DNA of 64,000 bases. Origin: Cobetia amphilecti (lineage in GTDB: Bacteria; Pseudomonadota; Gammaproteobacteria; Pseudomonadales; Halomonadaceae). The notes under the pieces were generated by a model. That model did no database searches and was not told where the DNA came from. It was given only the letters and a program-made list of their open reading frames with translations. The stretch covers positions 3,162,001-3,226,000 of the forward strand of contig NZ_CP084115.1 in the NCBI RefSeq assembly GCF_020217465.1. The letters are read 5' to 3'. The translations under genes and the position numbers were made by a program. Shown here piece by piece: positions 43,910-62,649 of the stretch (its first letter is position 1; each line of letters begins with the position of its first letter).

Positions 43910-44514
43910 TGACTTCGCGCCTTGCCATTGCCGCCACTGCCCTGCTGCTGACTGCCGGTGCCCCCTGGGCCAGCGCATCCGAGAACAGTGCCTCAAAGAC
44001 CAGCACCGCCGAATTCGACGCCCGCGCCCTGACGCAACAGCTGGCGCGCACCGCCCCGGTCTGCGGTGACTTCCAGCAGACGCGCTGGCTCGAGGATGTC
44101 GGTGCAGAGCTCGAGAGCCGGGGTCACTTCCGTCTGATCGGCGACCCGAACGCACCCGAAGGCCTGGTGTGGGAAACCACTTCGCCGATTGAAGACCGTC
44201 TCGAGATGCGCCCCGATGCCGGCCAAGGCCCGAATGGCGAGCCGCTGCCGGCCGACCAGCAGGCGATGGCGGAGCTGCTGATCAGCTTCTTCCACGGCGA
44301 CTGGCAGGCGCTGGAGGAGCACTTCTCCCTGACGTTGACGGGTACGCCGGATGATTGGCAGGCCAGCCTGACGCCCAACGATGCCCGGCTGGCCGAGGCC
44401 ATCGAGCGCCTCGAGATCGACGGTGGCAGCTGGCTGGAACACGTGAATCTCGACAGCGGCGACGGTGACCGCCTTGAGCTGGCGCTCACCGCCGGCGGTC
44501 ACTGCGAGCGATGA
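43909..44514 (+). CDS. LolA-like periplasmic carrier protein
   Basis: A 201-residue exported protein. A signal peptide (MTSRLAIAATALLLTAGAPW, cleaved after about residue 24) is followed by a LolA-type fold with FQQTRWLEDVGAELESRGHF and VWETTSPIEDRLEM. It probably carries the polyene lipid across the periplasm, by analogy with lipoprotein carrier LolA. The start at 43909 overlaps the thioesterase stop by one base (TGATG), with AAGGAA upstream. The exact cargo is inferred. Confidence 0.82.
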   Translation: MTSRLAIAATALLLTAGAPWASASENSASKTSTAEFDARALTQQLARTAPVCGDFQQTRWLEDVGAELESRGHFRLIGDPNAPEGLVWETTSPIEDRLEMRPDAGQGPNGEPLPADQQAMAELLISFFHGDWQALEEHFSLTLTGTPDDWQASLTPNDARLAEAIERLEIDGGSWLEHVNLDSGDGDRLELALTAGGHCER

Positions 44515-46967: not shown

Positions 46968-47051
46968 GGCGGGTCTGAAGCGAAAGACAAGCAAGCCGCA
47001 GGGAACGCAGCGCAGCATGTACACATAACGACAACGACAGGGGACGATGCC

Positions 47052-48443
47052 ATGGAATCGGCAGATCGCAGCAACAACCCACCACGCAAGGAAGTCATCA
47101 TCATCGGCGCCGGACCCGCCGGCGCGGCGGCGGCGGCGTGGCTGGCACGCGCGGGCCATGCGGTGCGCGTACTGGAGCGCAGCCACTTCCCTCGCTTCTC
47201 CATCGGCGAGAGCCTGCTGCCACGTTGCATGCAGCATCTGGAGGCCTGCGGCTTGATGGAGGCCGCCGCCGCCGGTGGCTATCAGCGCAAGACCGGTGCG
47301 GCCTTCACCCGCCGCGGCGAGCATCGCGTGATCGACTTCCGCGACAAGTTCAGCGACGGCCCCGGCACCACCTGGCAGGTAGAGCGCGCCGACTTTGATC
47401 AGCGCTTGATCGAGGGCGCGCGGGCGGCGGGCGCCGAGGTCGAATTCGGTGTCACGGTCACGGGCTTCACTCCGGCTCGCGCCGCGCAGAGCGACGCCAC
47501 CGGCCATGCGCAGGGGCCACGCCTCACGCTGGCGGATGGCCGCGAGCTTGAGGCCGCCTTCGTGCTGGATGCCAGCGGCTATGGCCGCGTGCTGGCGCGC
47601 CTCGAATCGCTTGAGCGTGACCCGCGCCTGGAGCCGCGCATGGCGCTGTTCGGCCATGTCCACGATGGCATCGCCGACCTCGCGCCGCCCGCCGAGGGCT
47701 ATCGCCGCGACAATATCCTGATCGCCTCGCATCCTACGCATCCCGATGTCTGGTACTGGCTGATTCCCTTCGCCAATGGCCGCGCCTCGCTGGGCGTGGT
47801 CGGCCCGCGCGAGCTGATCGAGCCTGCCGCCGAGGACGATGCGCAGACACGCCTGTGGCAGTGGGTGATGGAAGAACCGCGCCTGGCGGAGCTGCTGCGT
47901 GATGCTCGACCGGCCAACGCCGTGCAGTCGCTGGGCGGTTACAGCGCCGATGTCAGTCGCCTGCATGGCCCGGGCTATGCGCTGCTCGGCAATGCCGGAG
48001 AATTTCTGGACCCGGTGTTCTCCTCCGGCGTGACCATCGCGCTGGAATCGGCGCTGCGTGCCGCGCCGCTGGTCGGGCGTGAGCTTACCGCGACCCGCGA
48101 TGAGCAGCGCCCCGACTGGGCCAGCGAATATGAGCAGCCGCTGCGCCGTGGCATCGAGGTCTTCCGCGAATTCGTCACCGCCTGGTACGACAGCCGTCTG
48201 ACCGACATCATCTATCATCCCGAGCCGCATGCGCGGATTCGCCAGATGATCAGCGCGGTGCTCGCCGGTTACGCCTGGGACACGACCAACCCCTTCGTCA
48301 GTGCCAGTCGCCGCCGCCTGACGGCCCTTGCCAGACTGACCGCGCCCGAGCAGACACTCGCGCCAGACGCGGTGCCGGAAAGCGATTCGCTCGCTGACCT
48401 CAGCGCCTTCGGCCGCGCAGCAAGCGTCGGCGAGAACAGGTAA
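47052..48443 (+). CDS. Flavin-dependent oxidoreductase with halogenase-type motifs
   Basis: A 463-residue FAD protein. The FAD site GAGPAG is at 19-24, GESLLP at 52-57 and the second FAD motif is GYALLGNAGEFLDPVFSSG. Two features fit the flavin-dependent halogenase family: Lys80 in RKTGAAF, at the place of the catalytic Lys, and WYWLIP at 234-239, the WxWxIP motif. Aryl polyene clusters carry related oxidoreductases of unknown role, and xanthomonadins are brominated, so aryl halogenation is possible. It could equally be a non-halogenating desaturase or monooxygenase. It starts 85 bp after the MMPL gene. Confidence 0.82.
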   Translation: MESADRSNNPPRKEVIIIGAGPAGAAAAAWLARAGHAVRVLERSHFPRFSIGESLLPRCMQHLEACGLMEAAAAGGYQRKTGAAFTRRGEHRVIDFRDKFSDGPGTTWQVERADFDQRLIEGARAAGAEVEFGVTVTGFTPARAAQSDATGHAQGPRLTLADGRELEAAFVLDASGYGRVLARLESLERDPRLEPRMALFGHVHDGIADLAPPAEGYRRDNILIASHPTHPDVWYWLIPFANGRASLGVVGPRELIEPAAEDDAQTRLWQWVMEEPRLAELLRDARPANAVQSLGGYSADVSRLHGPGYALLGNAGEFLDPVFSSGVTIALESALRAAPLVGRELTATRDEQRPDWASEYEQPLRRGIEVFREFVTAWYDSRLTDIIYHPEPHARIRQMISAVLAGYAWDTTNPFVSASRRRLTALARLTAPEQTLAPDAVPESDSLADLSAFGRAASVGENR

Positions 48444-48452
48444 AGTAGCGTC

Positions 48453-49268
48453 ATGAAAAACATGTCTTTCGCCTCTCACGCTGTTTCTACTGGGCTGCAC
48501 ACAGTCGGGCTGCGCTCAGCAGGGCTGCGCTCTACTGGGCTGCACACAGTCGGGCTGCGTTCAGCAGGGCTGCGCAGCCGCCTCGGGCTGGCCAGCCTTG
48601 CCGTGGCCGCCACGCTGCTGTTGAGCGGCTGCAGCCTGCTCGCCCCACAGCCGCTGGAGGCTGCCAGCCCGATGCCGGCGCTGGCGAGTCTCGAGCAGAC
48701 CAGTACCCAACGTCTGATTCTGCGTGTGGCGCGTATAGAGAGTGATGACAACGCAAAACGGACTGTCGCTGTGGATGCCGAGGCTGGCGAGGGTGCGCAG
48801 GAGCAGAATCTGCCGCCTCTCATCGGCGTACTGCGTCAATCGCCCGAGGCCATGCGGCTGGTCATGCTCAGCGTGCAGGGCCAACGCCTGCTGACGCTGG
48901 TGCATGATGCCGACGGCAGCCGTTTCGAGAAGGCACGCCCCGAGGTACTCGAGAAGCTGCCCTTCAGCGCCGACTGGCTGGCGCGACGTATCGCCTGGGT
49001 GCACTGGCCGCAGGCCGCGATCGATGACGCCTTTGCGAACACAGGCTGGCAGCTGGTACAACGCGGCGACTGGCAACAAAGTCGCCAGCCCGCGCAGCGC
49101 ATCATCACGCAAGATGGTGTGACCATCGCCGAGCTGACCCGCGATGCCAGTGGCAGCGTGACCCTGCGCGACCCGGCGGCCGACATGCAGCTGACGCTGG
49201 AACCGCTGGCAGCGCCCAGCACACAGAACGCCCCTGACGACTCACCGGAAGCTCCCGCGCATGACTGA
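48453..49268 (+). CDS. DUF3261-type lipoprotein
   Basis: A 271-residue lipoprotein. The hydrophobic segment and lipobox are LASLAVAATLLLSGCS, with the lipidated Cys at about residue 60. It is preceded by an unusual 42-residue leader made of two 15-residue repeats (TGLHTVGLRSAGLRS). The mature part has PLIGVLRQSPEAMRLVMLSV and is typical of the small outer-membrane lipoproteins found in aryl polyene clusters. The start may really lie downstream of the repeats, but no good alternative Met exists before the signal. Confidence 0.75.
   Translation: MKNMSFASHAVSTGLHTVGLRSAGLRSTGLHTVGLRSAGLRSRLGLASLAVAATLLLSGCSLLAPQPLEAASPMPALASLEQTSTQRLILRVARIESDDNAKRTVAVDAEAGEGAQEQNLPPLIGVLRQSPEAMRLVMLSVQGQRLLTLVHDADGSRFEKARPEVLEKLPFSADWLARRIAWVHWPQAAIDDAFANTGWQLVQRGDWQQSRQPAQRIITQDGVTIAELTRDASGSVTLRDPAADMQLTLEPLAAPSTQNAPDDSPEAPAHD
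48489..48578. repeat. 45-bp tandem duplication upstream of the lipoprotein signal
   Basis: Two adjacent 45-bp units starting actgggctgcacacagtcgg (48489 and 48534), nearly identical until the last few bases. They encode the 15-residue repeat before the signal peptide. Confidence 0.95.
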
Positions 49269-50580
49269 ATCTGTTGCAACCGTGGCCACCGCTACCCCCA
49301 AGGGCCGCGACACTGGCAACGCCTGCCGCCTGTCTCGCCCCGGCATCGTCTGCCCGCTGGGCGCAGACCACGGCCTGATCAGCAGTGCGCTGTTCAGCGC
49401 CAGCCGTGGCCTGCGTGTCAGTGATGACTTCAGCCCCGGCACGCCGCTGTCGCTGGGGCGCGTCACCGCGCGGCTGGTGGATGACAGCGACTGGCCGGCC
49501 CCGCTGCGCTCACGCAACAACCGCCTGCTGGCCACCGCGCTTGAGCAGTTGGCACCGGAACTTGAAGCCCTCAAGCGTCAGGGCATCGCGCCGGAGCGCA
49601 TTGGCGTGGTGCTCGGTACCAGCACCTCCGGCATCGGCGAGACGGAAGCCGCGATGGACGCCCAGCGCGCCGCCGTCGCCCAGGGCACGCCGAGCGCCGA
49701 CAGCTGGCCGCAAAGCTTTGAATATCGTCGTCAGGAACTGGGCGCACCCGCCGAGTGTGTCGCCTGGCTGAGCGGCGCGCGTGGGCCGATCTACACCCTG
49801 TCCACCGCCTGCACCTCCAGCGCCAAGGCCTTGGCCAGTGCACGTCGTCTGCTGGCCTCCGGCCAGTGCGATGCGGTGATCGCCGGCGGTGCCGACAGCC
49901 TGTGCCACATGACGGTGAAGGGCTTCATGAGTCTGGAGGCCGTCAGCCGCAAGCAGAGCCAGCCGCTGGGAGCCGAGCGCGATGGCATCAATCTGGGCGA
50001 GGCCGCAGTACTGTTCGTGGTCACGCCGGAGCGCGGCGGCGTACAGCTGACCGGCGTCGGCGAATCCAGCGATGCCCACCATATTTCCGCGCCCTGCCCC
50101 GATGGCAGCGGCGCCGAGGCCGCCATGCGCGGCGCGCTCGCCAGTGCCGGCCGCGCCCCCGGTGAGATCGACTACATCAACCTGCACGGCACCGCCACGC
50201 CGCTGAATGACGCGATGGAAAGCCTCGCCATCAGCCGCCTGTTCGGTGCAGATGCCGACTCTGACACCGGTTCTGATATCGATCACGCCCGTCTGCCCGC
50301 CGTCAGCTCGACCAAGGCCCTTACCGGCCATACGCTGGGCGCCTGCGGGGCGCTGGAAGCCGCCTTCTGCTGGCTGGCGCTGGAACATGGCCGCCTGCCG
50401 CCGCATGCCACGCCGCGTGAGGCGCTGGACCCGACGCTGCCTGCGCTCAACATCGTCTATCGTGACCGCCCCGAGACCCCGCCGCTGCGGGTGATGAGCA
50501 ATGCCTTCGCCTTCGGCGGCAACAATATCTCGCTGGTGCTGGAGCGCCACACCACCGACCCGGAGTCCTCTGCATGCTGA
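49261..50580 (+). CDS. apeR: Beta-ketoacyl-ACP synthase (ApeR-like)
   Basis: A 439-residue ketosynthase with the full Cys-His-His triad: Cys184 in LSTACTSSAKA, His309 in INLHGTATP and His357 in TKALTGHTLGACG. It elongates or primes the polyene chain; a role distinct from the other ketosynthase is known in Xenorhabdus, and the assignment to ApeR rests on position before the dehydratase and reductase. It overlaps the lipoprotein gene by eight bases. Confidence 0.87.
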   Translation: MTESVATVATATPKGRDTGNACRLSRPGIVCPLGADHGLISSALFSASRGLRVSDDFSPGTPLSLGRVTARLVDDSDWPAPLRSRNNRLLATALEQLAPELEALKRQGIAPERIGVVLGTSTSGIGETEAAMDAQRAAVAQGTPSADSWPQSFEYRRQELGAPAECVAWLSGARGPIYTLSTACTSSAKALASARRLLASGQCDAVIAGGADSLCHMTVKGFMSLEAVSRKQSQPLGAERDGINLGEAAVLFVVTPERGGVQLTGVGESSDAHHISAPCPDGSGAEAAMRGALASAGRAPGEIDYINLHGTATPLNDAMESLAISRLFGADADSDTGSDIDHARLPAVSSTKALTGHTLGACGALEAAFCWLALEHGRLPPHATPREALDPTLPALNIVYRDRPETPPLRVMSNAFAFGGNNISLVLERHTTDPESSAC

Positions 50581-51182
50581 CCCCGAGCACCGACTCAGTT
50601 TCCCTTGCTGGCGCTGAGGTGCAGCCCCGTGAGGCGCGCTATCCCGCCATGCCCTGCGCCATCGGCCCCTATGTGCCCCATGATGCCGGCATGTGCCTGC
50701 TGGATAGCGTGCTGCGCTGTGACGAGCATTCGCTGAGCGCCGACATCACCCCGACGCCAGACAATCTGTTCGCCGAGCCGGACGACGACGGCCAGGCCGT
50801 GATTCCCGCCTGGGTCGGGCTTGAGTGGATGGCGCAGGCCATCGCCGCCTGGTCGGGCCTGCAGGCTGCGCGCAGCGGCCAGCCGCCGCGAGTCGGCTTT
50901 CTGCTCGGGAGTCGCCGCTATGAGAGCGAAGTCGCCGCCTTTTCCTGCGACTGTCGCTGGCTGATTCATGTTCAGCTCGACTATCGCGCCGACAACGGGC
51001 TGGGCGCCTTCGAGGCCACCATCAGCGACGAGCACGGCGCCACTGTCGCGCGTGCCGGCGTCAATGTCTTCGAGCCGGCGCCCGAGCCGCTGCCCTCCGC
51101 GGCGTCTACGCAAGAGACCGCACAAGAATCCTCACCCGGACAGCAGGATGCTGCCGGTGCCTCATCGCAAGGTAATGTCTGA
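50574..51182 (+). CDS. apeP: Hotdog 3-hydroxyacyl-ACP dehydratase (ApeP-like)
   Basis: A 202-residue hotdog protein. It has MCLLDSVLRCDEHSLSADIT, followed by PAWVGLEWMAQAIAAWSG (catalytic-helix region) and GFLLGSRRYESEV, the ApeP pattern. It should pair with the ApeI-like domain of the fused ligase and dehydrate 3-hydroxyacyl intermediates. The C-terminal 30 residues are Ser/Gln-rich and probably disordered. It overlaps both neighbours by a few bases. Confidence 0.85.
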   Translation: MLTPSTDSVSLAGAEVQPREARYPAMPCAIGPYVPHDAGMCLLDSVLRCDEHSLSADITPTPDNLFAEPDDDGQAVIPAWVGLEWMAQAIAAWSGLQAARSGQPPRVGFLLGSRRYESEVAAFSCDCRWLIHVQLDYRADNGLGAFEATISDEHGATVARAGVNVFEPAPEPLPSAASTQETAQESSPGQQDAAGASSQGNV

Positions 51183-51955
51183 TGTCTGTCACACCCCTCG
51201 CTACTGAAACTGCCACCGCTGCCCCTGAAGCACGCGAGTGGATTCTGGTCACCGGCTCCAGCCGTGGTATCGGCCGCGCCATCGCGCTGCGTCTGGCCCG
51301 CGAAGGCTACAACCTGGTGCTGCATTGTCGCTCGCGCCGTGACGCCGCCGAGGAGGTCGCGCGTGAGATCAGCGCCCTGGGCGGCGAATCGCGCATCCTC
51401 AGCTTCGATGTCGCCGACCGTGACGCCGCACGCAGCGCGCTGGAAGCCGATATCGAGGCCCACGGCTGCTGCTACGGGGTGGTCTGCAATGCCGGTATCC
51501 ATGCCGACAACGCCTTCCCGGCGCTCACCGATGAAGACTGGGACAGCGTGATCCGCACCAACCTCGATGGCTTCTACAACGTCATCAAGCCGCTTTCCAT
51601 GCCGCTGGTACGCCGCCGCAAGCCGGGGCGCATCATCGTGATATCCTCGGTGTCGGGCATGATGGGCAATCGGGGTCAGGTCAACTATTCCGCCGCCAAG
51701 GCGGGGCTGATCGGCGCGGTCAAGGCACTTGCGGTGGAGCTGGCCAAGCGCCGCATCACCGTCAATGCCGTCGCACCGGGCGTCATCGCCACCGAGATGA
51801 CCGAAGGCGTCGAGATGGAAGAGGCGCTGAAGATGATTCCCATGCGCCGCGCAGGGGAAGCCGAGGAAGTCGCCGCCACCGTGGCCTTCCTGTGCTCGAA
51901 GGACGCCGGCTACATCACCCGCCAGACCATCGCGGTGAACGGGGGGATGTTCTGA
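51182..51955 (+). CDS. apeQ: 3-oxoacyl-ACP reductase, FabG type
   Basis: A 257-residue SDR. It has TGSSRGIGRAIAL, CNAGIHADN, the catalytic Ser in VISSVSGMMGNRG and Tyr/Lys in VNYSAAKAGL, with VNGGMF at the end. It reduces the 3-oxo group in each polyene cycle. It overlaps the dehydratase stop and the next ketosynthase start by one base each (TGATG). Confidence 0.92.
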   Translation: MSVTPLATETATAAPEAREWILVTGSSRGIGRAIALRLAREGYNLVLHCRSRRDAAEEVAREISALGGESRILSFDVADRDAARSALEADIEAHGCCYGVVCNAGIHADNAFPALTDEDWDSVIRTNLDGFYNVIKPLSMPLVRRRKPGRIIVISSVSGMMGNRGQVNYSAAKAGLIGAVKALAVELAKRRITVNAVAPGVIATEMTEGVEMEEALKMIPMRRAGEAEEVAATVAFLCSKDAGYITRQTIAVNGGMF

Positions 51956-53214
51956 TGACGACTTCCTCTCAGGCACTGCGCGGCAGACGTGTCGTGGTCA
52001 CCGGCATGCATGGCTTCTCGCCCATCGGCAATGACTGGCCGACCCTGCGCGCCAACCTGGCCGCCGGGCGCACCGGCATCCGCTATATCGAGGACTGGGA
52101 CAAGTACGACGGCCTCAACACCCGCCTCGGCGCGCCGGTCAACGATTTCGAACTGCCCAGTCACTACAACCGTCGCGCGCTGCGCAGCATGGGCCGTGTG
52201 GCGCAGCTGGCGACCCGCTCCAGCGAACTGGCGCTGGAAGCGGCCGGCCTGAGTGACAGCCCGCTCAAGGAGAGCGGCCAGATGGGCATCGCCTACGGCG
52301 CCTCGGCCGGTGAGCCGGATGCGGTGGCCGACTTCGGCAACATGCTGCTCAACCACTCCACCGACGGGCTCAGCGCCAATTCCTATATCCGCATGATGGC
52401 GCACACCGCGCCGGTCAATATCGGCGTGTTTCTCGGTATCAAGGGGCGGATTCACACCACCTCCAGCGCCTGCACCTCCGGCAGCCAGGGCATCGGTTAC
52501 GCCTATGAGGCGATCCGCTTCGGCCGCCAGACCGCGATGGTCGCCGGTGGCTGCGAGGAGCTGTCCGCCGCCGACGCCGCCGTGTTCGATACCCTGTTCG
52601 CCACCAGCACCTGCAATGAGCGCCCGGACCTGTCACCGCGGCCCTTCGATGCCGAACGTGATGGCCTGGTGATCGGTGAAGGCGCCGGCACGCTGATTCT
52701 GGAAGAGCTGGAGCACGCCCTGGCGCGCGGCGCGACCATCCACGCCGAGATTCTCGGCTTCGGCACCAACTCCGATGGCCGTCACGTCACCCAGCCGGAC
52801 GCCAACATGATGGAGGCCGCGATGCGCATGGCGCTGGAGGATGCCGGTGTCGAGGCCTCAGAGATCGGCTATGTCAGCGCCCATGGCACCGCCACCGAGC
52901 GCGGCGATATCGCCGAGAGCCATGCCACCCATGCGGTGTTTGGCGATTCCACGCCGATCAGCGCCTTCAAGAGTTACACCGGCCATACGCTGGGCGCCTG
53001 TGGCGCGCTGGAGGCCTGGATCGCCATCGAGATGATGCGTGATGGCTGGTTCCACGGCACCGCCAATCTCACCAGTCTCGACCCGCGCTGTGCGCAGCTC
53101 GACTACCTCACCGGCGCAGGCCGCGAGATCGAGACGGACACCGTGATGAGCAACAACTTCGCCTTCGGTGGCATCAATACCTCGCTGATTCTGCGTCGCT
53201 GGCAGGGCGAGTGA
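51955..53214 (+). CDS. apeO: Beta-ketoacyl-ACP synthase II-type (ApeO-like)
   Basis: A 419-residue ketosynthase with Cys173 in TTSSACTSGSQGIG, His310 in YVSAHGTATE and His344 in KSYTGHTLGACGALE. It is the main elongating ketosynthase and should act with the chain-length factor at 34767. The start at 51955 overlaps the reductase stop; the frame is open to 51892, but only from here does the family begin (RRVVVTGMHGFSPIG). Confidence 0.9.
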   Translation: MTTSSQALRGRRVVVTGMHGFSPIGNDWPTLRANLAAGRTGIRYIEDWDKYDGLNTRLGAPVNDFELPSHYNRRALRSMGRVAQLATRSSELALEAAGLSDSPLKESGQMGIAYGASAGEPDAVADFGNMLLNHSTDGLSANSYIRMMAHTAPVNIGVFLGIKGRIHTTSSACTSGSQGIGYAYEAIRFGRQTAMVAGGCEELSAADAAVFDTLFATSTCNERPDLSPRPFDAERDGLVIGEGAGTLILEELEHALARGATIHAEILGFGTNSDGRHVTQPDANMMEAAMRMALEDAGVEASEIGYVSAHGTATERGDIAESHATHAVFGDSTPISAFKSYTGHTLGACGALEAWIAIEMMRDGWFHGTANLTSLDPRCAQLDYLTGAGREIETDTVMSNNFAFGGINTSLILRRWQGE

Positions 53215-53428
53215 GTCACTGGCAATCTGATCTGGCGCCAGTCATTACGCTTCGCGCTGACGCCTTTGCAGGGTGTCGCCAACGTACGACTTTGCAGCGG
53301 GTCGGATCTGGCGCAAGATACGCGCCCGCTGCATGGTCTATGGTGTGATTGGCTCACGCCCCTGGCTGGCTGACGGCGCTATTCACTGGCGTCGCGCCAG
53401 TCAATCACCCTGTTAGGAGAGGTCTCAG

Positions 53429-53968
53429 ATGGCGTCACGTTCTGCTCAGTCGCTCGCATCCTCGAAACGTTCCACGGCACCTGCCACGCGCACTCGCTCG
53501 GGTCGCGCCTCGCGTGTGCTGACACTGGTGTCTGCACTGCTGCTCGGCTCTGCGGGGCTTGTGGCCTCCGCCCCGGCGGTGGCGCGGGACACGCAGCACT
53601 TCCTGCCGATCATGCCGGTGATGGCCAGCACCGCGGCCAGTCAGCGACTGGGCAAGGACGTGGCTTTCTTCTTCGGTGACAAGCAGCCCTACGAGCGGAT
53701 CGAGAAGCGCGGCTGGGCGCGGGTGAACCCGAAGACCAACGCCACCAACAAGAGCGATGCGGAAGCCTGTCGCTGGGTGTTCCTGTCGGCGCTGCGTGAG
53801 CTGCAGGAAAAGGCGCGCGAATATGGGGCCAATGCGGTCATCAACATTCGCAGCGACTATGACAAGGTGCCCTACTCCAGCAGCGAGAAGTACGAGTGCC
53901 ATGCGGGTAATATCGTCGCGGGCGTCGCGTTGCGTGGGGATCTGGTGATCCTGCATCCGAAGAACTGA
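53429..53968 (+). CDS. Exported protein of unknown function common in aryl polyene clusters
   Basis: A 179-residue protein with a long basic N-region and signal peptide (about 28-52, SRVLTLVSALLLGSAGLVAS then APAVA). The mature part has GWARVNPKTNATNKSDAEAC, ELQEKAREYGANAVINIRSD and a late CHAGNIVAGVALRGDLVIL. Similar small proteins at the same place have often been labelled excinuclease ABC subunit A, but nothing here is UvrA-like. AGGAGAGG precedes the start. Function unknown; secretion is inferred from the signal. Confidence 0.75.
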   Translation: MASRSAQSLASSKRSTAPATRTRSGRASRVLTLVSALLLGSAGLVASAPAVARDTQHFLPIMPVMASTAASQRLGKDVAFFFGDKQPYERIEKRGWARVNPKTNATNKSDAEACRWVFLSALRELQEKAREYGANAVINIRSDYDKVPYSSSEKYECHAGNIVAGVALRGDLVILHPKN

Positions 53969-53977
53969 TTCGCCATC

Positions 53978-54871
53978 ATGACGGCCAGGCAAGGCGAGGG
54001 TGTGAGCGAGACAAGTAAGCCGGTTGAGGATAACTCGGCAATCGAGCCTGCGGCGCGCCCGACCGACCACCCCGCCTACCGCTGCGTGGTGCTGGGGCAT
54101 GCTGCAGCGGATGGCTCCGCTTCGCTGAGCACTGGTTCACTGAGCAGTGGTTCGCTGAGCAGTGATTCGCCATGCATTGAGCCGCTGAGCGTCGGGCGGC
54201 CAAGCATTGAGCCGCTGATCTCGCATGATCCCCACGCCCTCGCCGCTTCCTTGGCGTCTGCGACTGGCGGCGCTGCCCGCGCCTTGGCGAATCACTGCTC
54301 TGCATCATCCCCTCGGCCAGCCCGCCTGTGGCTGGCCGAGGCGTGTGTGCTGCCAGCATCCTGTGCTGATTCGGCTGCTCCCTCTATCAACTCCTCGGCG
54401 GATGCTTCACGCCGTCGCTCGCTGCGCGCTCGCCAGCCGGATGTGGATAACGCGGACACCCCCGTGTCATCTGCCAAGGCCCGCCGTCGCCAGCAACGTG
54501 AAGCCGAGTCACACCTCGCTCGCCTCCTGCTAGGTGAACTCGCCGCGGCCCAAGGCATTGTGCTGCCACTGACCGACTGGTCGCCGCGTGGCCAGGCACC
54601 CCATCACCCTGCGCTACCGGCAGGCTTCTACGTCTCCATCGCCCACCGCCACGGCCATGTACTCGTCGGCCTCGCCACCGCCCCGCTCGGGCTGGACCTC
54701 GAATACCGCAACCCCCGCCACGCCCACGACCTCGACGCCCGCATCGCCATGCTGCCCCAGGACGCACGCGAACACCTCGCCGAGGCATCACACCTCAGCG
54801 AGACAGAACGACTGGACGGGTTTTATCGAGAATGGGTGAGGTATGAGGCGGCGTTCAAGTTAATAAGATAA
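53978..54871 (+). pseudogene. 4'-Phosphopantetheinyl transferase, C-terminally truncated
   Basis: Sfp-type PPTase that should activate the two ACPs. The Mg-binding residues are present: Asp240 and Glu242 in GLDLEY, and Glu290 in REWVRYEAAFK. The reading frame stops seven residues after Glu290, where Sfp-type enzymes usually continue for several tens of residues. The last codons TTA ATA AGA are AT-rich and belong to the island that begins at about 54860. The N-terminal half is a long, low-complexity Ser/Ala-rich region with 15-bp DNA repeats. The start may be a GTG at 54002 (AAGGCGAGG upstream). It may be inactive; whether the truncated form works is unknown. Confidence 0.75.
54119..54163. repeat. 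15-bp tandem repeat in the PPTase gene
   Basis: gcttcgctgagcact, ggttcactgagcagt and ggttcgctgagcagt, in frame (repeated LSSGS-like residues). A second pair, gcattgagccgctga, follows. Confidence 0.9.
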
Positions 54872-54883
54872 TGCGTCTTAAGC

Positions 54884-55618
54884 TCAGGATTTCCTAGCAT
54901 CTCTGATATACATGGCAGTTCCATTGCCACGCATTTCTATGGAAAACAGTTCTGATGCTCTAACTAAATCCCCAAGCTTTTTATACCCATAATTAATAGA
55001 TGAAAAAGAACTTTTATTAGACATATAATGTCCCACTCGGCCTAATAAAGACCACCCATCGTCTTCTGAAGATTGCTCTGCAGCGTTTCTTAGCAAATTG
55101 ACTAATGCTGTATCACTTCTAAGCTCATTCCTACATCTTGGAACTTGGCTACTATCATCTGGTATATCCGTAACTGGCTCTTCATAATACAATTTTTCAG
55201 TATATATAAATGTCGAACAAGCATCTACAAAAGGTCTCGGAGTCTTTTGCTCTCCAAAACCATAGACAGGGAATCCTCCTTCAAGCAGCCTCAAGACTAA
55301 TGGTGTAAAATCGCTATCACTAGTCATGAGCGCAAAAAGATCAATATTACCACTATAGAGGAGATCCATAGCATCTATAATCATTGCAGAGTCAGTAGCA
55401 TTTTTACCTTTCGTAAAGGCAAACTGCTGCATAGGCCTTATAGCATTTGGATGAAGCTTTTCAATCCATCCTGATAGCAAAGGGCTGTTCCAATCACCAT
55501 GGGCATGTCTGACATTAACCACACCATATTTTGCAAGCTCTTCTAGAACCCCTTCAATTGAATTATGACTAACATTGTCACAATCTATCAAAAGCGCAAT
55601 CCGTTGCTCTCCAGCCAT
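54884..55618 (-). CDS. NYN/LabA-type PIN-like ribonuclease with possible C-terminal LOTUS (OST-HTH) domain
   Basis: A 244-residue protein. The NYN domain (about 5-145) keeps the acidic residues that bind metal: Asp12 and Asp14 in LLIDCDN, Asp76 in KNATDSAMIIDAMDLL, and Asp101 and Asp103 in LMTSDSDFTPL. The C-terminal 75 residues (ALVNLLRNAAEQSSEDDGWS, then LLGRVGHYM and YGYKKLGDLVR) fit an OST-HTH/LOTUS RNA-binding domain. AAGGGG precedes the start, and the upstream membrane gene ends 24 bp before, so the two form an operon. Related NYN-LOTUS proteins are widespread in bacteria; a role in defence or RNA decay is inference. Confidence 0.83.
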   Translation of the reverse strand: MAGEQRIALLIDCDNVSHNSIEGVLEELAKYGVVNVRHAHGDWNSPLLSGWIEKLHPNAIRPMQQFAFTKGKNATDSAMIIDAMDLLYSGNIDLFALMTSDSDFTPLVLRLLEGGFPVYGFGEQKTPRPFVDACSTFIYTEKLYYEEPVTDIPDDSSQVPRCRNELRSDTALVNLLRNAAEQSSEDDGWSLLGRVGHYMSNKSSFSSINYGYKKLGDLVRASELFSIEMRGNGTAMYIRDARKS

Positions 55619-55642
55619 CAGCTCATCCCCTTGTTAGAAGTT

Positions 55643-57010
55643 TTAGTGGTTACAAAAATTATTTCTTAAGTACTCAACACCTTCAGTAGTATTATTTTCA
55701 ACCAGTCCCTTTGCAACCATTTCATCATATATTTCAATAATTTTCACGACATCATCCATGGAAATTTTATCATCATCGAGTAAAGCTTGTAATATCTGTC
55801 TAATCCTCTTGCCATATATTTTTGACCTGACATTTGATAAACGCTCTATCAAGAAGAATGACTGCGCAATAGAGAAGCTACGCTCGATACCCCCAAAGAA
55901 ATATTTAGATGCTTGAATTACCCCCATAACCCTGAACTCATACCTTACGGAAGACAAGTACATATCTAGCTGCTCGTCTTTATCTATAACTTTAGTAAAC
56001 CACTTGGCTAAAAGTATCTCTACAATCTTTCTTCTTTTTGTTTTACTAAAATCTTTTATAAACAATGTACGAACTAACTGCTGTGTAATAGTCGAGCCAC
56101 CTGACCTTGGGTGCAATTTCAACGAGGACAATATAACTCTTGCAAGCCCCTTCCAACTCACACCGCTGTGACGGTAAAACTCTTTATCCTCTATTCGCAC
56201 TGCAATTTGCTTGAGGGCCTTTAAGTCAATATTTAATCTCTGAGCTTCGTATACAGATAATTTTGCATGATAAACAATATGCTCTATTCGCTCCTCGACT
56301 TTTAACGAGAGTAGCTTAGACACATACTGAGTAAAAACAAGAAGCATACTCTCGTGCTTATCTAGCAAAGCGTGCCTATATAGGAAACAAAAGGCAACAA
56401 AAGCAAGGAATGATGCTGGAACAGAGACAACCAGATCAGCATTCAAAGTAGAAGCTATTGACAACCCGCCTACATCTAACAAAATAGTCAAAATAAAATA
56501 TATTACAAAAGCCGAGATTCCTGATATGGCATAGCATGGATATGCTACGTAAGTTTTCCAGCCTGGAAACATACGTATGGCAAATGGTTCATTAGCTCCT
56601 TCAATCCGCCAATTAGGAAGAACGAGCTGAAACTCACCATATTTAACACCGAGCACAGTTCTCAAAACAACTACTTTTCTAGCCGCATATACTATTGATT
56701 TTTGTCTTGCAGCAAAATGAAACAAAAATAGAACAGTAAATAGAATAGTGATAATGAGAAAAGCAAAAAGCATAGACTCAACTGGCATCAAAAAATCTTT
56801 ATTACCTGTAATGCTTTCCAATTTACCTAAAGTCAGTGAACCGAATGCTGCACCTATTACAATCGCGATATTAGCCGCGCTCAAGAAGACCTTCTCTTCC
56901 GTTTCTAACGTTTTTGACGCTGACCTATACTCTTCAAGAATCATTTCATTATTATCAAACTTAAACGTTGGGTAGTGCTGCTTCCAACCTGGGTTATCGC
57001 CACTATTCAT
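55643..57010 (-). CDS. Membrane protein with GT51 peptidoglycan glycosyltransferase domain
   Basis: A 455-residue protein without a transpeptidase domain. The N-terminal 215 residues have four likely membrane helices (about 43-62, 79-99, 160-180, 193-211) and no known family that I can name. The C-terminal region has GT51 motifs: Glu274 in RIEDKEFYRHSGVSW, GGSTITQQLVRT at 304-315, and Glu331 in KRRKIVEILLAKW. Motif 4 is degraded: where YLN is usual, it reads LDMYLSSV. The start has AGGTGG upstream. The short helical segment between (about 215-265) has no clear match. It is AT-rich, like its partner gene. Activity on lipid II would need the domain outside; see findings. Confidence 0.82.
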   Translation of the reverse strand: MNSGDNPGWKQHYPTFKFDNNEMILEEYRSASKTLETEEKVFLSAANIAIVIGAAFGSLTLGKLESITGNKDFLMPVESMLFAFLIITILFTVLFLFHFAARQKSIVYAARKVVVLRTVLGVKYGEFQLVLPNWRIEGANEPFAIRMFPGWKTYVAYPCYAISGISAFVIYFILTILLDVGGLSIASTLNADLVVSVPASFLAFVAFCFLYRHALLDKHESMLLVFTQYVSKLLSLKVEERIEHIVYHAKLSVYEAQRLNIDLKALKQIAVRIEDKEFYRHSGVSWKGLARVILSSLKLHPRSGGSTITQQLVRTLFIKDFSKTKRRKIVEILLAKWFTKVIDKDEQLDMYLSSVRYEFRVMGVIQASKYFFGGIERSFSIAQSFFLIERLSNVRSKIYGKRIRQILQALLDDDKISMDDVVKIIEIYDEMVAKGLVENNTTEGVEYLRNNFCNH

Positions 57011-57085
57011 CCAAAACCACCTATAAGCCCATCATGCAAAGAAAACATTTCTTAACACTTATACCCTAAACGACTAATAATAAAA

Positions 57086-57114
57086 AACCCCGCCAGAGAA
57101 ATCTCTGCCGGGGT
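57086..57114 (-). terminator. Intrinsic terminator of ridA
   Basis: A 13-bp stem with one mismatch (aaccccgccagag / ctctgccggggtt) and, on the minus strand, a run of T after it. It marks the right-hand limit of the AT-rich island. Confidence 0.85.
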
Positions 57115-57134
57115 TAGGAAAACCATACTGCGAG

Positions 57135-57491
57135 TTACTTAACAGCGGCGACCACGGTAATTTCACACAGCAGTTCCGGGCTGGCCATGGCGGCTTGTAC
57201 ACAGGCGCGGGCGGGGGCGTGACCTTGTGGCACCCAGGTGTCCCAGATGTCGTTGAAGGTCTTGAAGTCGTCCATTGTCTTGAGATAGACGGTGGCGGAG
57301 AGCAGGTGCTCGCGGTCGGTGCCGACTTCTTCCAGCAGCGCATCGACACGCGCGAGCATGCTGTTGGCCTGGTCCGTGATATTCCCGAAGCGATGGTCCG
57401 GACCGGCGACCTGGCCACACAGGTAGATGGTGTTGTTGTGGATCACGGCGCGGCTCATGCGCGGCTTGGTGTCATGGCGTTGGATGTTCAT
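57135..57491 (-). CDS. RidA-family protein
   Basis: A 118-residue member of the YjgF/YER057c/UK114 family, whose RidA members hydrolyse reactive enamines and imines made by PLP enzymes. The substrate-pocket motifs NNTIYLCGQVAG and VPQGHAPARACVQAAMAS (with the conserved Arg) are present. It is a subgroup relative rather than orthodox RidA. It has its own terminator and lies next to the island. Confidence 0.88.
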   Translation of the reverse strand: MNIQRHDTKPRMSRAVIHNNTIYLCGQVAGPDHRFGNITDQANSMLARVDALLEEVGTDREHLLSATVYLKTMDDFKTFNDIWDTWVPQGHAPARACVQAAMASPELLCEITVVAAVK

Positions 57492-57901
57492 CGAGAGTGT
57501 CCTTGTGCTGTTCTTCTTGGGTAGTGAAAAAATGCCCCCAGCGGTGCTGATACAGAAAAGACCGCTAGCGAAGCAGGGTGAGGTCAGTCCTTCAGCGTTC
57601 CAGATTCGCGCGAGCGGCGCAACGCGACCTGCGGAGAATATTACCCTGCATCAGAAGAACCTGTGGTTTCAGTTATGGGGGCTCTTGTGGTGGCTCTTGT
57701 GGTGACAGCTGTTGTTTCACGCGTGCTGCCGGTGATGCAGGAAAACGTGCGTGAACTCAAGACTGCCGGTATACGAAGACACCCGCCAGACAGCAAGACG
57801 CCGCGCCCGAGAGATTACGGAAGCGCGGCGTCACGGCAATGATGGAACGGCTCGCTCATCAGCCAATGCTCATAGAGCCGCCTGAGCGCCTCAGGGATGG
57901 C
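57492..57901. other. Intergenic region between ridA and the universal stress gene (410 bp)
   Basis: I see no gene. It contains a 12-bp direct duplication, ggctcttgtggt, near 57680. Confidence 0.5.
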
Positions 57902-58792
57902 TCAGCGCAGGATCAGCAGCGGCACCGTGGCGTTGCGAATCATCTCGGTGGTGGTGCTGCCGACCAGCAGCTGACGGATGCGCGAGTGGCCATAGGCGCC
58001 CATCACCAGCATGTCGATGGTGTGTTCCTTGGCATATTCGCGCAGGCAGGCTTCCACCTCTCCTGCTCTGAAGCTGGCCTGCACGCTGAAACCTGCCGCG
58101 GTGAGGGTGTCGCGCGCGGCGTCCAGCGGAGCCTGATGTTCCACCGACTCCGCGCCGACCATCACCAGATGCAGCTCCGCGCCTTGCAGCAGCGGGCTTG
58201 CCGCCAATACCTCGACGGCGCGCTTGATGGTGGTGCTGCAATCGAAGGCGATCAGCACCCGCGTCGGCTGATTGAACTCGCCCGGCACCACCAGCACCGG
58301 ACGATGCAGACTGCGAATCACGCGCTCCAGATTGCTGCCCAGGTGCTCGCTGGCCTGCTCCGCCCCTTCGCCGCGCTTGCCGATCACCAGCAGGCGAATC
58401 TCGTCTTCCAGCTCCGCGAGGGTCTCGACCAGCTCTCCATTGCGCTGGCGTGGACGCGGCTCCGCGATACCCGCCTGCACGGCGCGCTCGTAGGCGGCCT
58501 CCAGCATCAGGCGGCCCTGCTCCTGGGCGATACGCCCGCGTTGCTCATCCAGGGTGGCGAGCTCTTCCAGCAGATGCTCGCGCGCACCGAGCCCGATACT
58601 GCCGGAGAGATCACTGTTGGTCTCGCCCGCCCCTTCCTGGCGGTCGATCACATGCAGGAAGCTCAGCGGCGCCGAGAGACGTTGGCTTGCCCATACGGCG
58701 GCATCACACACGGAGACGGCAAAGGCGGAGCCGTCAATGCAGGCGGTGACCTTGTCATGGCCTGTCAGGGCACTGGCAGAGGATTGGCTCAT
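57902..58792 (-). CDS. Tandem-domain universal stress protein
   Basis: A 296-residue cytosolic protein with two UspA domains (about 8-150 and 160-296). The second has the ATP-binding-type glycine motif [17 protein letters not shown], and the first has a matching [18 protein letters not shown]. The start at 58792 follows AAGGAAG. It lies directly downstream of the sulfate transporter-like gene in the same direction, a common pairing in which the stress protein may control the transporter. Confidence 0.9.
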
Positions 58793-58875
58793 GGCGTGCT
58801 TCCTTATGCTGACGATCAAGGTGGCGCTTCAGGCGCCTGTTTCGAGATTACCACTTTCCGACCCTACCAACGCAA

Positions 58876-58908
58876 ACGGCGGGCAGCCCGTGAAGGACTG
58901 CCCGCCGT
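58876..58908. terminator. Hairpin between SulP and the universal stress gene
   Basis: An 11-bp perfect stem (acggcgggcag) with an 11-base loop, with a short T-run on the minus strand. It may partly end the SulP transcript. Confidence 0.6.
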
Positions 58909-58968
58909 CTTTACGCATCAATCACGCTGCTGGCGCCGCCCTCGATCAGGCGGGTGGCGCCAACGGGA

Positions 58969-60456
58969 TCAATGCCCCATCAGTTTCTCGACCGCATCCG
59001 GCTTGTCATGCACCGCGAAGCGATCCACCAGCGTGGCGCTGGCTTCGTTGAGGCCACGCACCTCGACCTCGGTACCCTCGCGGCGGAACTTGACCACCAC
59101 GGTGTCCAGCGCGCCGATGGCGGTGATGTCCCAGAAGTGTGCACGGCTGACGTCGATGACGACACGCTCGACGGTCTCCTTGAGGTCAAAACCGGCCTGG
59201 AACTGCTCGCTGGAGGCGAAGAACACCTGACCGACCACGCGGTATTCGCGGGTACGACCATCGGCATTCATGTCGCTGCCGATATGCAGCACCTGACCGA
59301 TCTTGTTGGCGAAGAACAGCGCCGAGAGCAGCACGCCGACCAGTACGCCGATCGCCAGGTTGTGGGTCGCGACCACGACGGCCACGGTGCCCAGCATGAC
59401 GATGTTGGTGGACATCGGGTGGGTCTTGAGGTCACGGATCGACTGCCAGGAGAAGGTGCCGATGGAGACCATGATCATCACCGCGACCAGTGCGGCCATC
59501 GGAATCTGCGAGACCCACGGGCCGAGGAACACGACCAGGATCAGCAGCACGACACCCGCCACCATGGTGGAGAGACGCGTACGACCGCCGGACTTCACGT
59601 TGATCATCGTCTGGCCGATCATCGCGCAACCCGCCATGCCGCCAAGGAAGCCGGTGACGACGTTGGCCGCGCCCTGGCCCTTGCACTCACGGTTCTTGTC
59701 GGACGGCGTATCGGTCAGATCATCGACCAGGGTGGCCGTCATCAGGGATTCCAGCAGGCCCACGACCGCCAGCGGCAGCGAGTACGGCAGGATGATCCAC
59801 AGGGTTTCCAGATTGAAGGGGATGTCCGGAATCAGGAACACCGGCAGGCTGTCCGGCAGCTCGCCCATGTCGCCGACGGTGCGGATATCCAGACCGACGA
59901 CCATCGCGAAGATGGTGAGCACGATGATGCAGACCAGCGGCGACGGCAGCAGCTTGCCGACCTTCGGCACCAGCGGCAGCAGGTAGATGATGCCGAGACC
60001 GGCCGCCGTCATGGCGTAGACGTGCCAGGTGACGTTGGTCAGCTCCGGCAGCTGGGCCATGAAGATCAGGATCGCCAGCGCATTCACGAAGCCGGTGACC
60101 ACCGAGCGCGACACGAAGCGCATCAGCGAGCCGAGCTTGAAGTAGCCGAAGATGATCTGGATCACGCCGGTCAGCACGGTGGCGGCCAGCAGGTATTCCA
60201 GGCCGTGGTCCTTGACCAGGTCGACCATCAGCAGTGCCATGGCACCGGTGGCGGCGGAGATCATGCCCGGACGGCCACCGGCGATGGCGGTCACCACGGC
60301 GATGGAGAAGGAGGCATACAGGCCGACCTTGGGGTCGACACCGGCAATGATGGAAAAGGCGATGGCTTCGGGGATCAGGGCCAACGCCACCACCAGGCCG
60401 GACAGGATGTCGGGCCGGAGGTTGGAGAGCCACTGCTGTTTGAGGCTGCTTGTCAT
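58969..60456 (-). CDS. SulP-family inorganic anion transporter with STAS domain
   Basis: A 495-residue membrane transporter. The SLC26/SulP hallmark is in [20 protein letters not shown] followed by VGLYASF. About ten to fourteen helices follow, and then a C-terminal STAS domain (about 400-490) with [20 protein letters not shown], in which Ser of the usual DxSxxxxxD motif is kept. It may carry sulfate, bicarbonate or another anion; the sequence does not decide. The universal stress gene follows. Confidence 0.93.
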
Positions 60457-60720
60457 CGAGTCGTCCGCAACAGGTTGGGGAAGGTGGTGTGCGTGCTGGA
60501 TCCTGGCGCTGTCGAGTCAGTCTGGCGTCCGGTTGTTGCAATCTTCATCACTGCCGTCAGGGGCAGTGCCGCTCGCGCCTGGCTCGCGTCGTGAAGTCGC
60601 CGTCGTTTCCGATCGCCCTGTGGCTTTCTTCGCGCCATGAGCTATTCGCTCCGGTCGCCGTGAGGCGTCCAGAGGGCTGTCATTTGACAGTGAATAAACT
60701 CGGGGATGGGCGGGATTGTA

Positions 60721-61770
60721 TCAGTTGCCGCCCGCAGACGCATCCGCAGAAGGCGTGCGCGTGGCCTGCAGGTGACGCAGGCGGCGGTCGATCAGGCTCT
60801 TGATCAGCATCGCGCCCAGCACCATGGCGCCGCCCACCCAGCCGCGCACGGTCAGCGACTCGTCCAGCACCCACCACACCCACAGGATGCCGAACACGCT
60901 TTCCAGCAGCATCAGCAGCGCCACCTCGGCGGACGGCAGATACAGCGGACCACGCTGGATCAGCGTGAAGCCCAGCGGCGATAGCACCAGACACAGCAGC
61001 ACCAGCCAGCCGGCGCGCCGGGCGAAATCATCGCTGTGCGAGGGCCATAGCTGGGTGAGCACGCTCTCGAGGCCCTCTGCTGCACCCTCCCCAGCACCAG
61101 AGACCGCCAACCACGTGCAGGCCAGCAGGCCGCACAGCGCGGTCAGCAGTCCCGACAGTGTCAGCATCGGGCTCATGTCGAGGCCCGGGCGCGTACGGCA
61201 CAGCGTGAAGTTGCCCGCCAGTGACAGGCTGCAGCCCAGCGCGAGCAGATTGCCGGTCAGTGAGCCGTTGCCCGCCTCGTCCATCACCAGCAGCGTGATG
61301 CCCGCCAGCGAGACCAGAATCGCGCCCCATACATGGCGCGGCTGACGCTCGCCCAGCCATAGCCGCGACATCAGCGCCGCGAACAGCGGACTGGCAGCGA
61401 GGATGATCAGCACATTGCCGGCGCGGGTGTATTGATTGGCGAGCACGAAGCCCAGCGTGGAGCCGGTGAACAGCAGCGCGACCCACAGCCCCGTACGCCC
61501 GCAGCCACGCATGCGCGCCAGCGCACTGGCGAAGCGCTGGCCTGGCCCGCCGCGCTGGGTGAGCAGCAGAATCAGCGCAAAGCCGATGGCCGTCAGCAGG
61601 CCGCGCCAGAACACCAGCGGGCCATCGGCGACATCGGCGAGGCGCAGCAACAGCGCATCCGGCGAGATCAGCAACACGCCCAGCGCCGTCAGCGCGACGC
61701 CGCGCGCCTGCAGGGCTCTGGCATCCGGGCCGTGATCGCGGGAAAGATGGGAGTCAGTCGACGGCTGCAT
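60721..61770 (-). CDS. EamA/DMT-family transporter
   Basis: A 349-residue inner-membrane protein with ten helices arranged as two EamA repeats (first about 27-160, second about 170-315). The LGERQPRHVWGAILVSLAGI and LTVRGWVGGAMVLGAMLI segments are typical repeat ends. The substrate is unknown; the family includes metabolite exporters. It starts seven bases after the HAD gene stop, so the two are cotranscribed. Confidence 0.9.
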   Translation of the reverse strand: MQPSTDSHLSRDHGPDARALQARGVALTALGVLLISPDALLLRLADVADGPLVFWRGLLTAIGFALILLLTQRGGPGQRFASALARMRGCGRTGLWVALLFTGSTLGFVLANQYTRAGNVLIILAASPLFAALMSRLWLGERQPRHVWGAILVSLAGITLLVMDEAGNGSLTGNLLALGCSLSLAGNFTLCRTRPGLDMSPMLTLSGLLTALCGLLACTWLAVSGAGEGAAEGLESVLTQLWPSHSDDFARRAGWLVLLCLVLSPLGFTLIQRGPLYLPSAEVALLMLLESVFGILWVWWVLDESLTVRGWVGGAMVLGAMLIKSLIDRRLRHLQATRTPSADASAGGN

Positions 61771-61776
61771 GCACGC

Positions 61777-62649
61777 TCAGTCCGATTCGATGGACAGGTG
61801 CGACTGGCGCCAGTCGACCACCGGCCAGCCACGCGCTTCGGCGAACTGGCGCAGCGGCGCATCCGGCTGGGTGGCGTGGGGATGATCGACCCGCTCGAGC
61901 AGCGGCAGGTCGTTGTGGGAATCGGAGTAGCCCCACAGTGCCTGCGGCGCACGCTTGAGCTGGCTGGCGTCTTCCAGCCAGGCATCCAGCGCCGCCAGCT
62001 TGCCTTCGCGGAAGGTGACGATGCCGGTGGTCTCGCCGGTGAAGCGGCCCTCTTCATCGAAGGCAGGATGGGTGGCCAGCGCGCCATCGGCGGTCAGACG
62101 ACTGGCGATGGGGCCGACCAGATGATGCATGGAGGCGGAGATGATCAGGGTGCGATGGCCCGCCTCGCCGTGTTCGGCCAGCCGTGCGATGCCGCCTTCC
62201 AGCAGACGCGGCATTACCATTTCTTCCACGAAATCATCGACTTCACGACGCACCTCATCGCGATGCCGTCCGATGAGCGGGCTGAGCAGATGGCCGGTAT
62301 GCTCGTGGATATCTAGGGTGCCGGCGTGATACTCGCTCTGGTGGCGCTCGCCGATGGCCATGAAGGCATCGACATCCTCGATCCAGCCACAGGCGGCCAT
62401 CCAGCGCATCCACATGCCGGTGCAGTCGCCATCGAGCAGGGTATCGTCGAGATCGAACACCGCCAGCGGGGAATCCAGCTGGCAGAAATGGCGCAGATAC
62501 CCCTCACCCGGCGGCGATAGCGGTGGCAGCAGCGTCACGGCATCGCAGTCGGCACAGAGATCCGCCAGCGGTGAGCGGCGGACCTCTACCCCGGGGGCAG
62601 CATTGAGGGCGCGCGGCGCAGCAGAGGGTGAGGGCATGGTTCGAGTCAC
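61777..62649 (-). CDS. HAD-superfamily subfamily IB hydrolase (second)
   Basis: A 290-residue phosphatase. Motif I is AVFDLDDTLLDGDCTGMW (about 63-80), motif II is LIISASMHHLVGPIA, and motif IV is GYSDSHNDLPLLERV. It resembles the gene at 2588 in domain order but has an N-terminal extension of about 60 residues without a known match, so the true start may be later (no good Met is seen). The substrate is unknown. Confidence 0.83.
   Translation of the reverse strand: MTRTMPSPSAAPRALNAAPGVEVRRSPLADLCADCDAVTLLPPLSPPGEGYLRHFCQLDSPLAVFDLDDTLLDGDCTGMWMRWMAACGWIEDVDAFMAIGERHQSEYHAGTLDIHEHTGHLLSPLIGRHRDEVRREVDDFVEEMVMPRLLEGGIARLAEHGEAGHRTLIISASMHHLVGPIASRLTADGALATHPAFDEEGRFTGETTGIVTFREGKLAALDAWLEDASQLKRAPQALWGYSDSHNDLPLLERVDHPHATQPDAPLRQFAEARGWPVVDWRQSHLSIESD

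Follow-up and report, generated by a model that had tools for sequence, protein, structure and literature searches.

A probable defense cassette with a putative GT51 membrane effector in a variable chromosomal slot of Cobetia amphilecti

The question raised by this locus is why a short block of low-G+C DNA, which encodes a membrane protein with a GT51 transglycosylase domain next to a NYN-OST-HTH nuclease, is located between two genes that are conserved in the genus Cobetia. The window analyzed in the present study, by which we mean the whole stretch of 64,000 nucleotides, corresponds to positions 3162001-3226000 of the 4.16 Mb single-contig genome of Cobetia amphilecti (NZ_CP084115.1), and the features with which we are concerned are given below in window coordinates.

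54850-57076, no strand: low-G+C cassette filling a variable slot, delimited by composition and by alignment to congeners
55643-57010, minus strand: four-helix membrane protein with a C-terminal GT51 (Transgly) domain, both Glu present; first gene of the block
54884-55618, minus strand: NYN (LK-nuclease type) and OST-HTH/LOTUS protein, separated by 24 bp from the GT51 gene upstream
53978-54871, plus strand: left flank, probable 4'-phosphopantetheinyl transferase-like (PPTase-like) gene, with a weak Pfam match
57076-57115, minus strand: right border, imperfect inverted repeat with a T-run resembling a ridA terminator, by eye
57135-57491, minus strand: right flank, RidA (Ribonuc_L-PSP), identified by Pfam and in all six genus genomes

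The slot between the PPTase-like gene and ridA, the contents of which are swapped between genomes, as shown from six genomes of the genus, is probably a defense-cassette site. We consider it probable that this site is at present occupied by the block, which lacks an integrase of its own and carries a candidate anti-phage membrane effector together with an independent RNase.

Contents of the slot across the genus

A sequence-only reading of the window had noticed a sharp change in composition at approximately 54860, and this change is real: the G+C content is 0.66 at 54001-54500, 0.37-0.39 over 55001-57000, and 0.55-0.59 over 57001-58000, with the block as a whole (54850-57075) at 0.38 in surrounding DNA of approximately 65%. 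The block reaches slightly further left than that reading had placed it, the last base homologous to congeners being 54849 in all four that were aligned and 54848 in the corresponding piece of a fifth genome (G657). Homology starts again at 57076-57082 in the same four congeners and at 57135 in G657, and none of the bases 54850-57070 align to any of the four. The inverted repeat at the right border has a similar version in five of the six genomes, as judged by eye, and is absent from the output of a terminator scan. The two neighboring minus-strand genes were also confirmed from the open reading frames (455 and 244 aa, with a gap of 24 bp) and are probably co-transcribed; a promoter scan was uninformative (10 found versus 6.3 expected).

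A search for the flanks in the genus covered six genomes including that of the window, and both flanks were present in all six, each with a different low-G+C filling; the slot of G657 was deduced from flanks that sit at the ends of two contigs. Filling lengths range from 1.6 to 2.6 kb (G657 left out), and the G+C content is 34-41%, the two G657 pieces being at 34 and 37%. Horizontal acquisition of the block, as the sequence-only reading had proposed, is supported by its position in a slot that is filled differently in each genome. G661 carries an Abi_C protein (Pfam, 1.7e-21; AbiJ, 1.7e-18) next to a membrane protein that no family matched above the cut-off, G660 a Pycsar pair in which PycC is found in two pieces (8.8e-78 and 1.9e-24) beside PycTM (2.6e-26), G659 an AAA ATPase with an OLD TOPRIM domain (Old, 9.2e-73), G658 a DUF6119/TIGR04141 protein (1.7e-131), and G657 a NADAR protein (1.8e-27) that matches the PADLOC candidate model PDC-M42C (8.1e-12). 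In the window and in four congeners, the filling genes are antiparallel to the PPTase-like gene, which gives the same orientation in five of the six genomes.

The eight main filling proteins of the five congeners, with one transposase left out, were compared with the PADLOC models, and six matched at 8.1e-12 or better (to approximately 9e-78), namely, AbiJ, PycC in its two pieces, PycTM, Old, and PDC-M42C. Known or candidate defense genes are therefore present in the slot of four of the five congeners, in one by a candidate model only. Ten core genes of the window were used as a control, two of which matched at 1e-5: one to a desaturase model (1.4e-6) and RidA to PD-T4-2_B (3.2e-11). The slot has core flanks on both sides, differing defense systems between them, and no single mobile element that accounts for its contents, which are the features of a defense hotspot.

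The same contents may be explained by a slot that serves as a landing place for acquired genes in general, in which defense is frequent only as the dominant small mobile cargo. This explanation accommodates the DUF6119 gene in one of the five congeners and the window pair, neither member of which matches PADLOC, and the sample of just six genomes leaves room for it; on the other hand, known or candidate defense genes occupy the slot in four of the five congeners, and no metabolic or drug-resistance gene was recognized among the main open reading frames of the fillings. We regard a general landing place as rather unlikely, and a defense-cassette site is the reading with which we continue.

Regarding individual occupants, the 239-aa membrane protein of the G661 slot (L037:1922-2641; membrane protein by eye) lies next to the Abi_C/AbiJ-like protein, and the two may form a two-gene Abi system. 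In the G660 slot (L038:1126-3587), an rve-type transposase gene splits pycC and PycTM is still an open frame, so that this occupant looks broken. The DUF6119/TIGR04141 protein, of a family called 'sporadically distributed', is alone in the G658 slot (L039:1215-2858) and is a candidate defense gene by position. Neither this protein nor the G661 membrane protein has a PADLOC match.

Core defense hotspots have been described in Pseudomonas aeruginosa as cDHS1 and cDHS2 (PMC10250203). To the extent of the text available from that source, the slot of the genus resembles them in having fixed core genes at both ends, defense content that varies, no single mobile element behind it, and almost constant occupancy, and differs from them in its small size, in holding one system per genome, in the lack of a tRNA or tmRNA gene within 50000-61000 of the window, and in having one border inside a coding sequence. 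Since core defense hotspots are already known, the slot represents a further case; the GT51 protein is a candidate for a new type of effector.

The GT51 membrane protein and its family

The 455-aa protein matches Pfam Transgly (3.8e-30) at residues 264-392, and the match, which covers model positions 24-152 of 178, stops short of the C-terminal end of the GT51 model; a motif like RLSNVRS, shared by the family, lies in this region. E274 (IEDKEF) and E331 (RRKIVE), which we take to be the catalytic Glu pair of GT51, line up with the Glu residues of solved GT51 enzymes and are retained in all five full-length members and in the 3' piece of the Aliidiomarina member. A structure model built from seven aligned rows (predicted local distance difference test score, pLDDT, 70.8; predicted template modeling score, pTM, 0.64) replaced an earlier three-row model that was discarded (pLDDT 40.5). 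With the seven-row model, Foldseek retrieved the solved GT51 structure 3d3h (E 3.9e-4, TMt 0.70), with no row below the GT51 ones better than E 0.7, and the structural alignment to GT51 reached Z 13.2 over 164 residues with a root-mean-square deviation of 3.5, versus Z 9.1 for the top unrelated row. Matches obtained with VIA-align over residues 20-216, including MurJ rows, were at the level common to helical bundles and were not used.

Four hydrophobic segments (41-59, 79-97, 162-180, and 193-211) precede the GT51 domain, as they do in all five full-length members; in that of G1330, a fifth is found within the GT51 region. The description of four likely membrane helices followed by a GT51 domain with both catalytic Glu thus holds by hydropathy, Pfam, and alignment. 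The loop between helices 2 and 3 contains 9-10 K+R versus 3-6 D+E in all five members, and those between helices 1 and 2 and between helices 3 and 4 contain no more than three K+R or D+E each. Loops of membrane proteins follow the positive-inside rule, which would place the helix 2-3 loop, the N-terminus, and the GT51 domain in the cytoplasm. Normal GT51 enzymes have a single N-terminal helix and a periplasmic catalytic domain, and the domain described here is predicted from hydropathy and charge to face the opposite side. The protein shares with the GT51 peptidoglycan glycosyltransferases, namely, monofunctional enzymes and class A penicillin-binding proteins, the fold, E274 and E331, and the GGSTIxQQ and RRK..E motifs, and differs from them in having four helices instead of one, a domain predicted to be cytoplasmic, and an unmatched end of the GT51 model.

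The retained fold and catalytic residues are also what would be expected of a periplasm-facing monofunctional transglycosylase that repairs or alters the wall of the host as a stress or niche gene without a role in defense, and the negative N-terminus leaves room for another topology. However, the four helices and the positive second loop point to an inside location of the domain in five of five members, the end of the GT51 model is unmatched, with the RLSNVRS-like motif in that region, and the distribution and gene contexts described below, with one other genome in 293 and homologues beside integron integrases and defense genes, do not suit a wall enzyme of the host. A periplasmic enzyme of this type appears improbable to us.

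We return to the reading of a candidate effector, according to which the protein would represent a new family of membrane proteins in which a GT51 domain is held at the cytoplasmic face by four helices, the most likely role being that of an abortive-infection effector. Infection may be sensed by the membrane part or by a partner, and the GT51 domain may then bind or polymerize the lipid-linked peptidoglycan precursor in the inner leaflet, by which wall synthesis in the infected cell would be halted. The defense function, the cytoplasmic face, and the attack on the precursor are all proposed from sequence. A likeness to abortive-infection membrane effectors is that a Pycsar effector, PycTM, holds the same slot in G660; unlike PycTM, the window protein has a GT51 domain, no PADLOC match, and no cyclase partner.

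Five genomes besides that of the window encode the protein: those of Nitrincola tapanii (50-51% identity) and Aliidiomarina sanyensis (54% over the N-terminal part, with the gene split across two contigs), G952 and G1278 (43-44%), and G1330 (30%). In counts that each include the query genome or the center genome itself, it was present in 2 of 293 genomes in a sample of the order (whole protein, 1e-25), that is, one other than the query, and in 1 of 369 in the class (1e-6). At 1e-5, the counts were 2 of 398 for the phylum, 2 of 196 for the Aliidiomarina family, 2 of 295 for the order to which G1278 belongs, and 1 of 56 for the G1330 family. These counts indicate a rare and scattered family. Cargo of phages or plasmids was rejected as an explanation on the basis of the records covered, since at least 80% of the protein was covered in none of the 283 plasmid records with any match and in none of 35 phage records; no relatives were found in viral contigs in two scans.

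In Nitrincola, the array starts from an integron integrase (291.9 bits, cut-off 265); PDC-S71 and then a membrane protein precede the GT51 gene, which is followed by a GNAT gene, a protein that PADLOC matches only weakly (0.003), and SIR2 with HerA. Attachment-like (attC-like) sequences flank the GT51 gene by eye, with folding z values of -1.6, -2.3, and -2.7. In G952, the GT51 gene is directly beside an integron integrase (369.5 bits, above the cut-off, with the frame read from model position 71), and an attC-like sequence seen by eye is located at its stop codon (z -1.2; the other folding value for G952 is -3.3). In each of these two genomes, the GT51 gene looks like a lone integron cassette. 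An AriA-like ATPase and a reverse-transcriptase fragment are found upstream of the gene in Aliidiomarina, and AbiEi on the contig with its 3' half; attC-like ends in G1278 and Aliidiomarina had no folding support (z 0.07 and 0.24). The same-strand run of G1330 consists of MmeI_Mtase (3.7e-88), a helicase (weak), a T5orf172 nuclease (7.4e-15), the GT51 protein, a membrane protein, and Schlafen-AlbA, an operon of the restriction type in which the GT51 gene follows the T5orf172 nuclease gene by 2 bp.

Integron integrases or defense genes are thus near the GT51 homologue in four of the five other genomes. The link to defense suggested by the sequence-only reading is supported by these neighbors and by the four congener slots with known or candidate defense genes.

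Defense cassettes in integrons have been reported by Kieffer et al. and Darracq et al., as cited in PMC13092281. With respect to these, as far as they are described in the portion of that source available, two GT51-membrane homologues are similar in lying beside an integron integrase, one of them arrayed with SIR2-HerA; unlike them, the window copy has no integrase recognized by eye among the open reading frames of 50000-62000 and no attC-like site found in the block by a strict script, the latter test being weak because the script also missed the probable sites of Nitrincola and G952.

Two loci around members of this family may be mentioned as observations in their own right. A 292-aa protein of Nitrincola with several hydrophobic stretches and without a Pfam, PADLOC, or NCBIfam match (L006:8881-9759) is encoded in an apparent single-gene cassette between PDC-S71 and the GT51 gene, and the G1330 run (L065:67-8896) is a possible new defense operon.

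The NYN-OST-HTH gene and the question of a pair

The second protein of the block, of 244 aa, matches Pfam NYN (5.6e-36) followed by OST-HTH (1.8e-12), which confirms its assignment as a NYN nuclease with a LOTUS domain, and acidic residues D12, D14, D76, D101, and D103 were read by eye in the NYN domain. Its family is not confined to the slot: a second gene is present in the same genome (43% identical; G000:C1:1740754-1741488), one copy is present in three of the five congeners (42-46% identical), and matches occur in 367 plasmid records. A DNA search of E. coli gave as its only match a 103-base NYN stretch on plasmids of 4 of 5,426 genomes. The neighbors in nine plasmid records include replication and partition genes, restriction-modification genes, a DEAD/DEAH helicase, and an HNH nuclease; repA with DUF2913 is near the gene in two records and ParA in two, and none recurs in more than two of the nine.

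Bacterial proteins that combine a NYN/LK-nuclease with OST-HTH have been described without linkage to other RNA systems, and a standalone RNA-degrading enzyme was suggested (PMC2848206). In the text available from that source, their two-domain architecture is identical to that of the window protein, which differs from them in sharing a block with a GT51-membrane gene. The available text of PMC8195603 mentions a predicted immune system in which OST-HTH is joined to S1 domains; this fusion is not a NYN-OST-HTH protein. Judging from its family, the NYN-OST-HTH gene may encode an ordinary RNase that happens to share the cassette.

The sequence-only reading had proposed a linked two-part module, and the adjacency of the two genes on one strand with a gap of 24 bp, their similar composition, and their presence in a single block are consistent with halves of one system, in which the nuclease would sense or cut RNA and the membrane protein would be the effector. 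In G1330, the GT51 gene is also directly behind a nuclease gene, of another family (T5orf172). Nevertheless, no NYN-OST-HTH match was found at 1e-5 in the five genomes that encode the GT51-membrane protein besides that of the window (0/2, 0/2, and 0/1, the last search being without any positive and by itself uninformative), two integrons appear to carry the GT51 gene as a cassette by itself, and plasmid records, hundreds of which hold NYN-OST-HTH matches, include none with a GT51 match at 80% coverage. Among annotated genes, with hypothetical proteins left out, none in the nine plasmid records placed a GT51 gene near NYN-OST-HTH. As far as sampled, the homologues never occur together elsewhere, and recurrence near defense genes was found for the GT51 homologues and not for the two genes as neighbors. 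A conserved pair was dropped on these grounds, and a single system made of both proteins is, in our judgment, quite unlikely; we favor an occupant with two independent defense-type genes.

Borders of the slot and exchange of cassettes

The left border lies inside the PPTase-like gene, the identity of which is weak (Pfam 4PPT_N, 0.023), with no solved-structure relative found for a longer homologue from another genus. The FYREW..YEA..K stretch is read by us, as an assumption, as a PPTase motif. The C-terminal regions of four of eight homologues from other genera were compared, and all four extend well beyond this stretch; one, of 207 aa, continues for approximately 70 residues past the lysine. 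In the genus, the frame stops 3-19 residues after the conserved lysine and the C-terminal part found in other genera is missing. The last codons, including that of the conserved Lys, lie on the cassette side of the border and vary per genome (AAFK, ATIK, AVLK, AKTK, ATLK, and VMIK), with the lysine at the same position in six of six. Ratios of nonsynonymous to synonymous substitution rates for residues 161-292 were 0.13-0.44 in ten pairs of five genomes, with G657 left out, which suggests selection on the shortened gene. The Ser/Pro-rich N-terminal part (window 53978-54460) is strongly variable among congeners, unlike the C-terminal part. Upstream of the slot, 44511-53214 holds a series of genes of the fatty-acid/polyketide type (by eye, ketosynthase-like and ketoreductase-like), which we liken, as an assumption, to an aryl-polyene cluster.

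No site-specific recombinase was seen among the fillings, and the sole mobile gene among nine filling open reading frames compared with Pfam is the rve-type transposase within G660 pycC. Single-system cassettes without their own recombinase may be swapped between lineages, and homologous recombination through the conserved flanks is a plausible route. The identity of the flanks to G659 is 0.915 on the left and 0.882 on the right versus a background of 0.797, levels reached by 1.2% and 8.9% of background stretches, respectively; for G658, it is slightly raised (15% and 20% of background stretches as high), and for G660 and G661 it is not above background.

Several observations weigh against the reading of the block as a defense occupant with a cytoplasmic effector. 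Raised identity beside the cassette, as expected from flank-mediated exchange, is clear for G659 only. G658 carries a DUF6119/TIGR04141 protein outside the PADLOC models, and the NADAR protein of G657 matches a candidate model only and is encoded by a gene reversed relative to the other fillings, which runs opposite to ridA. Neither of the two window proteins matched PADLOC-DB 2.0 (0/2), and membership of either in a known defense family was rejected as far as these models reach. No defense gene was recognized among the two neighbors tested in G1278, and the PADLOC scan of neighbors left out those of G952. The basis of the topology is confined to hydropathy and charge, and the N-terminal 40-50 residues, which are net negative in four of five members and neutral in one, fit an inside location less well.

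A bolder proposal is that of an inside-out immune transglycosylase, in which a cytoplasmic GT51 domain would hit the precursor before it is flipped and kill or halt the cell, and which would move as a one-gene cassette via integrons and via an integrase-free slot, the cassettes of which also end the PPTase-like gene with the conserved Lys. We put this forward tentatively and consider it doubtful as a whole.

Among the literature matches listed, which consisted of titles and the beginnings of abstracts, no immune system with a peptidoglycan-type GT51 enzyme is described, and no described system of defense with NYN/OST-HTH was found in a search partly swamped by general terms. The word 'transglycosylase' in three of the papers listed refers, in the text available, to tRNA or DNA base exchange by other enzymes, and the available portion of the main text of PMC13092281 contains no mention of transglycosylase, glycosyltransferase, peptidoglycan, or NYN. 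In view of the matches listed, a defense effector aimed at a wall precursor would, if true, represent a new way of killing, and a GT51 fold facing the cytoplasm would raise the question of how it acts before the flipping of lipid II. A slot that holds one system, with sharp borders and no integrase, provides a clean place for studying the exchange of defense genes, and it yields the GT51 protein, the DUF6119 protein, and the partner of Abi_C as candidates.

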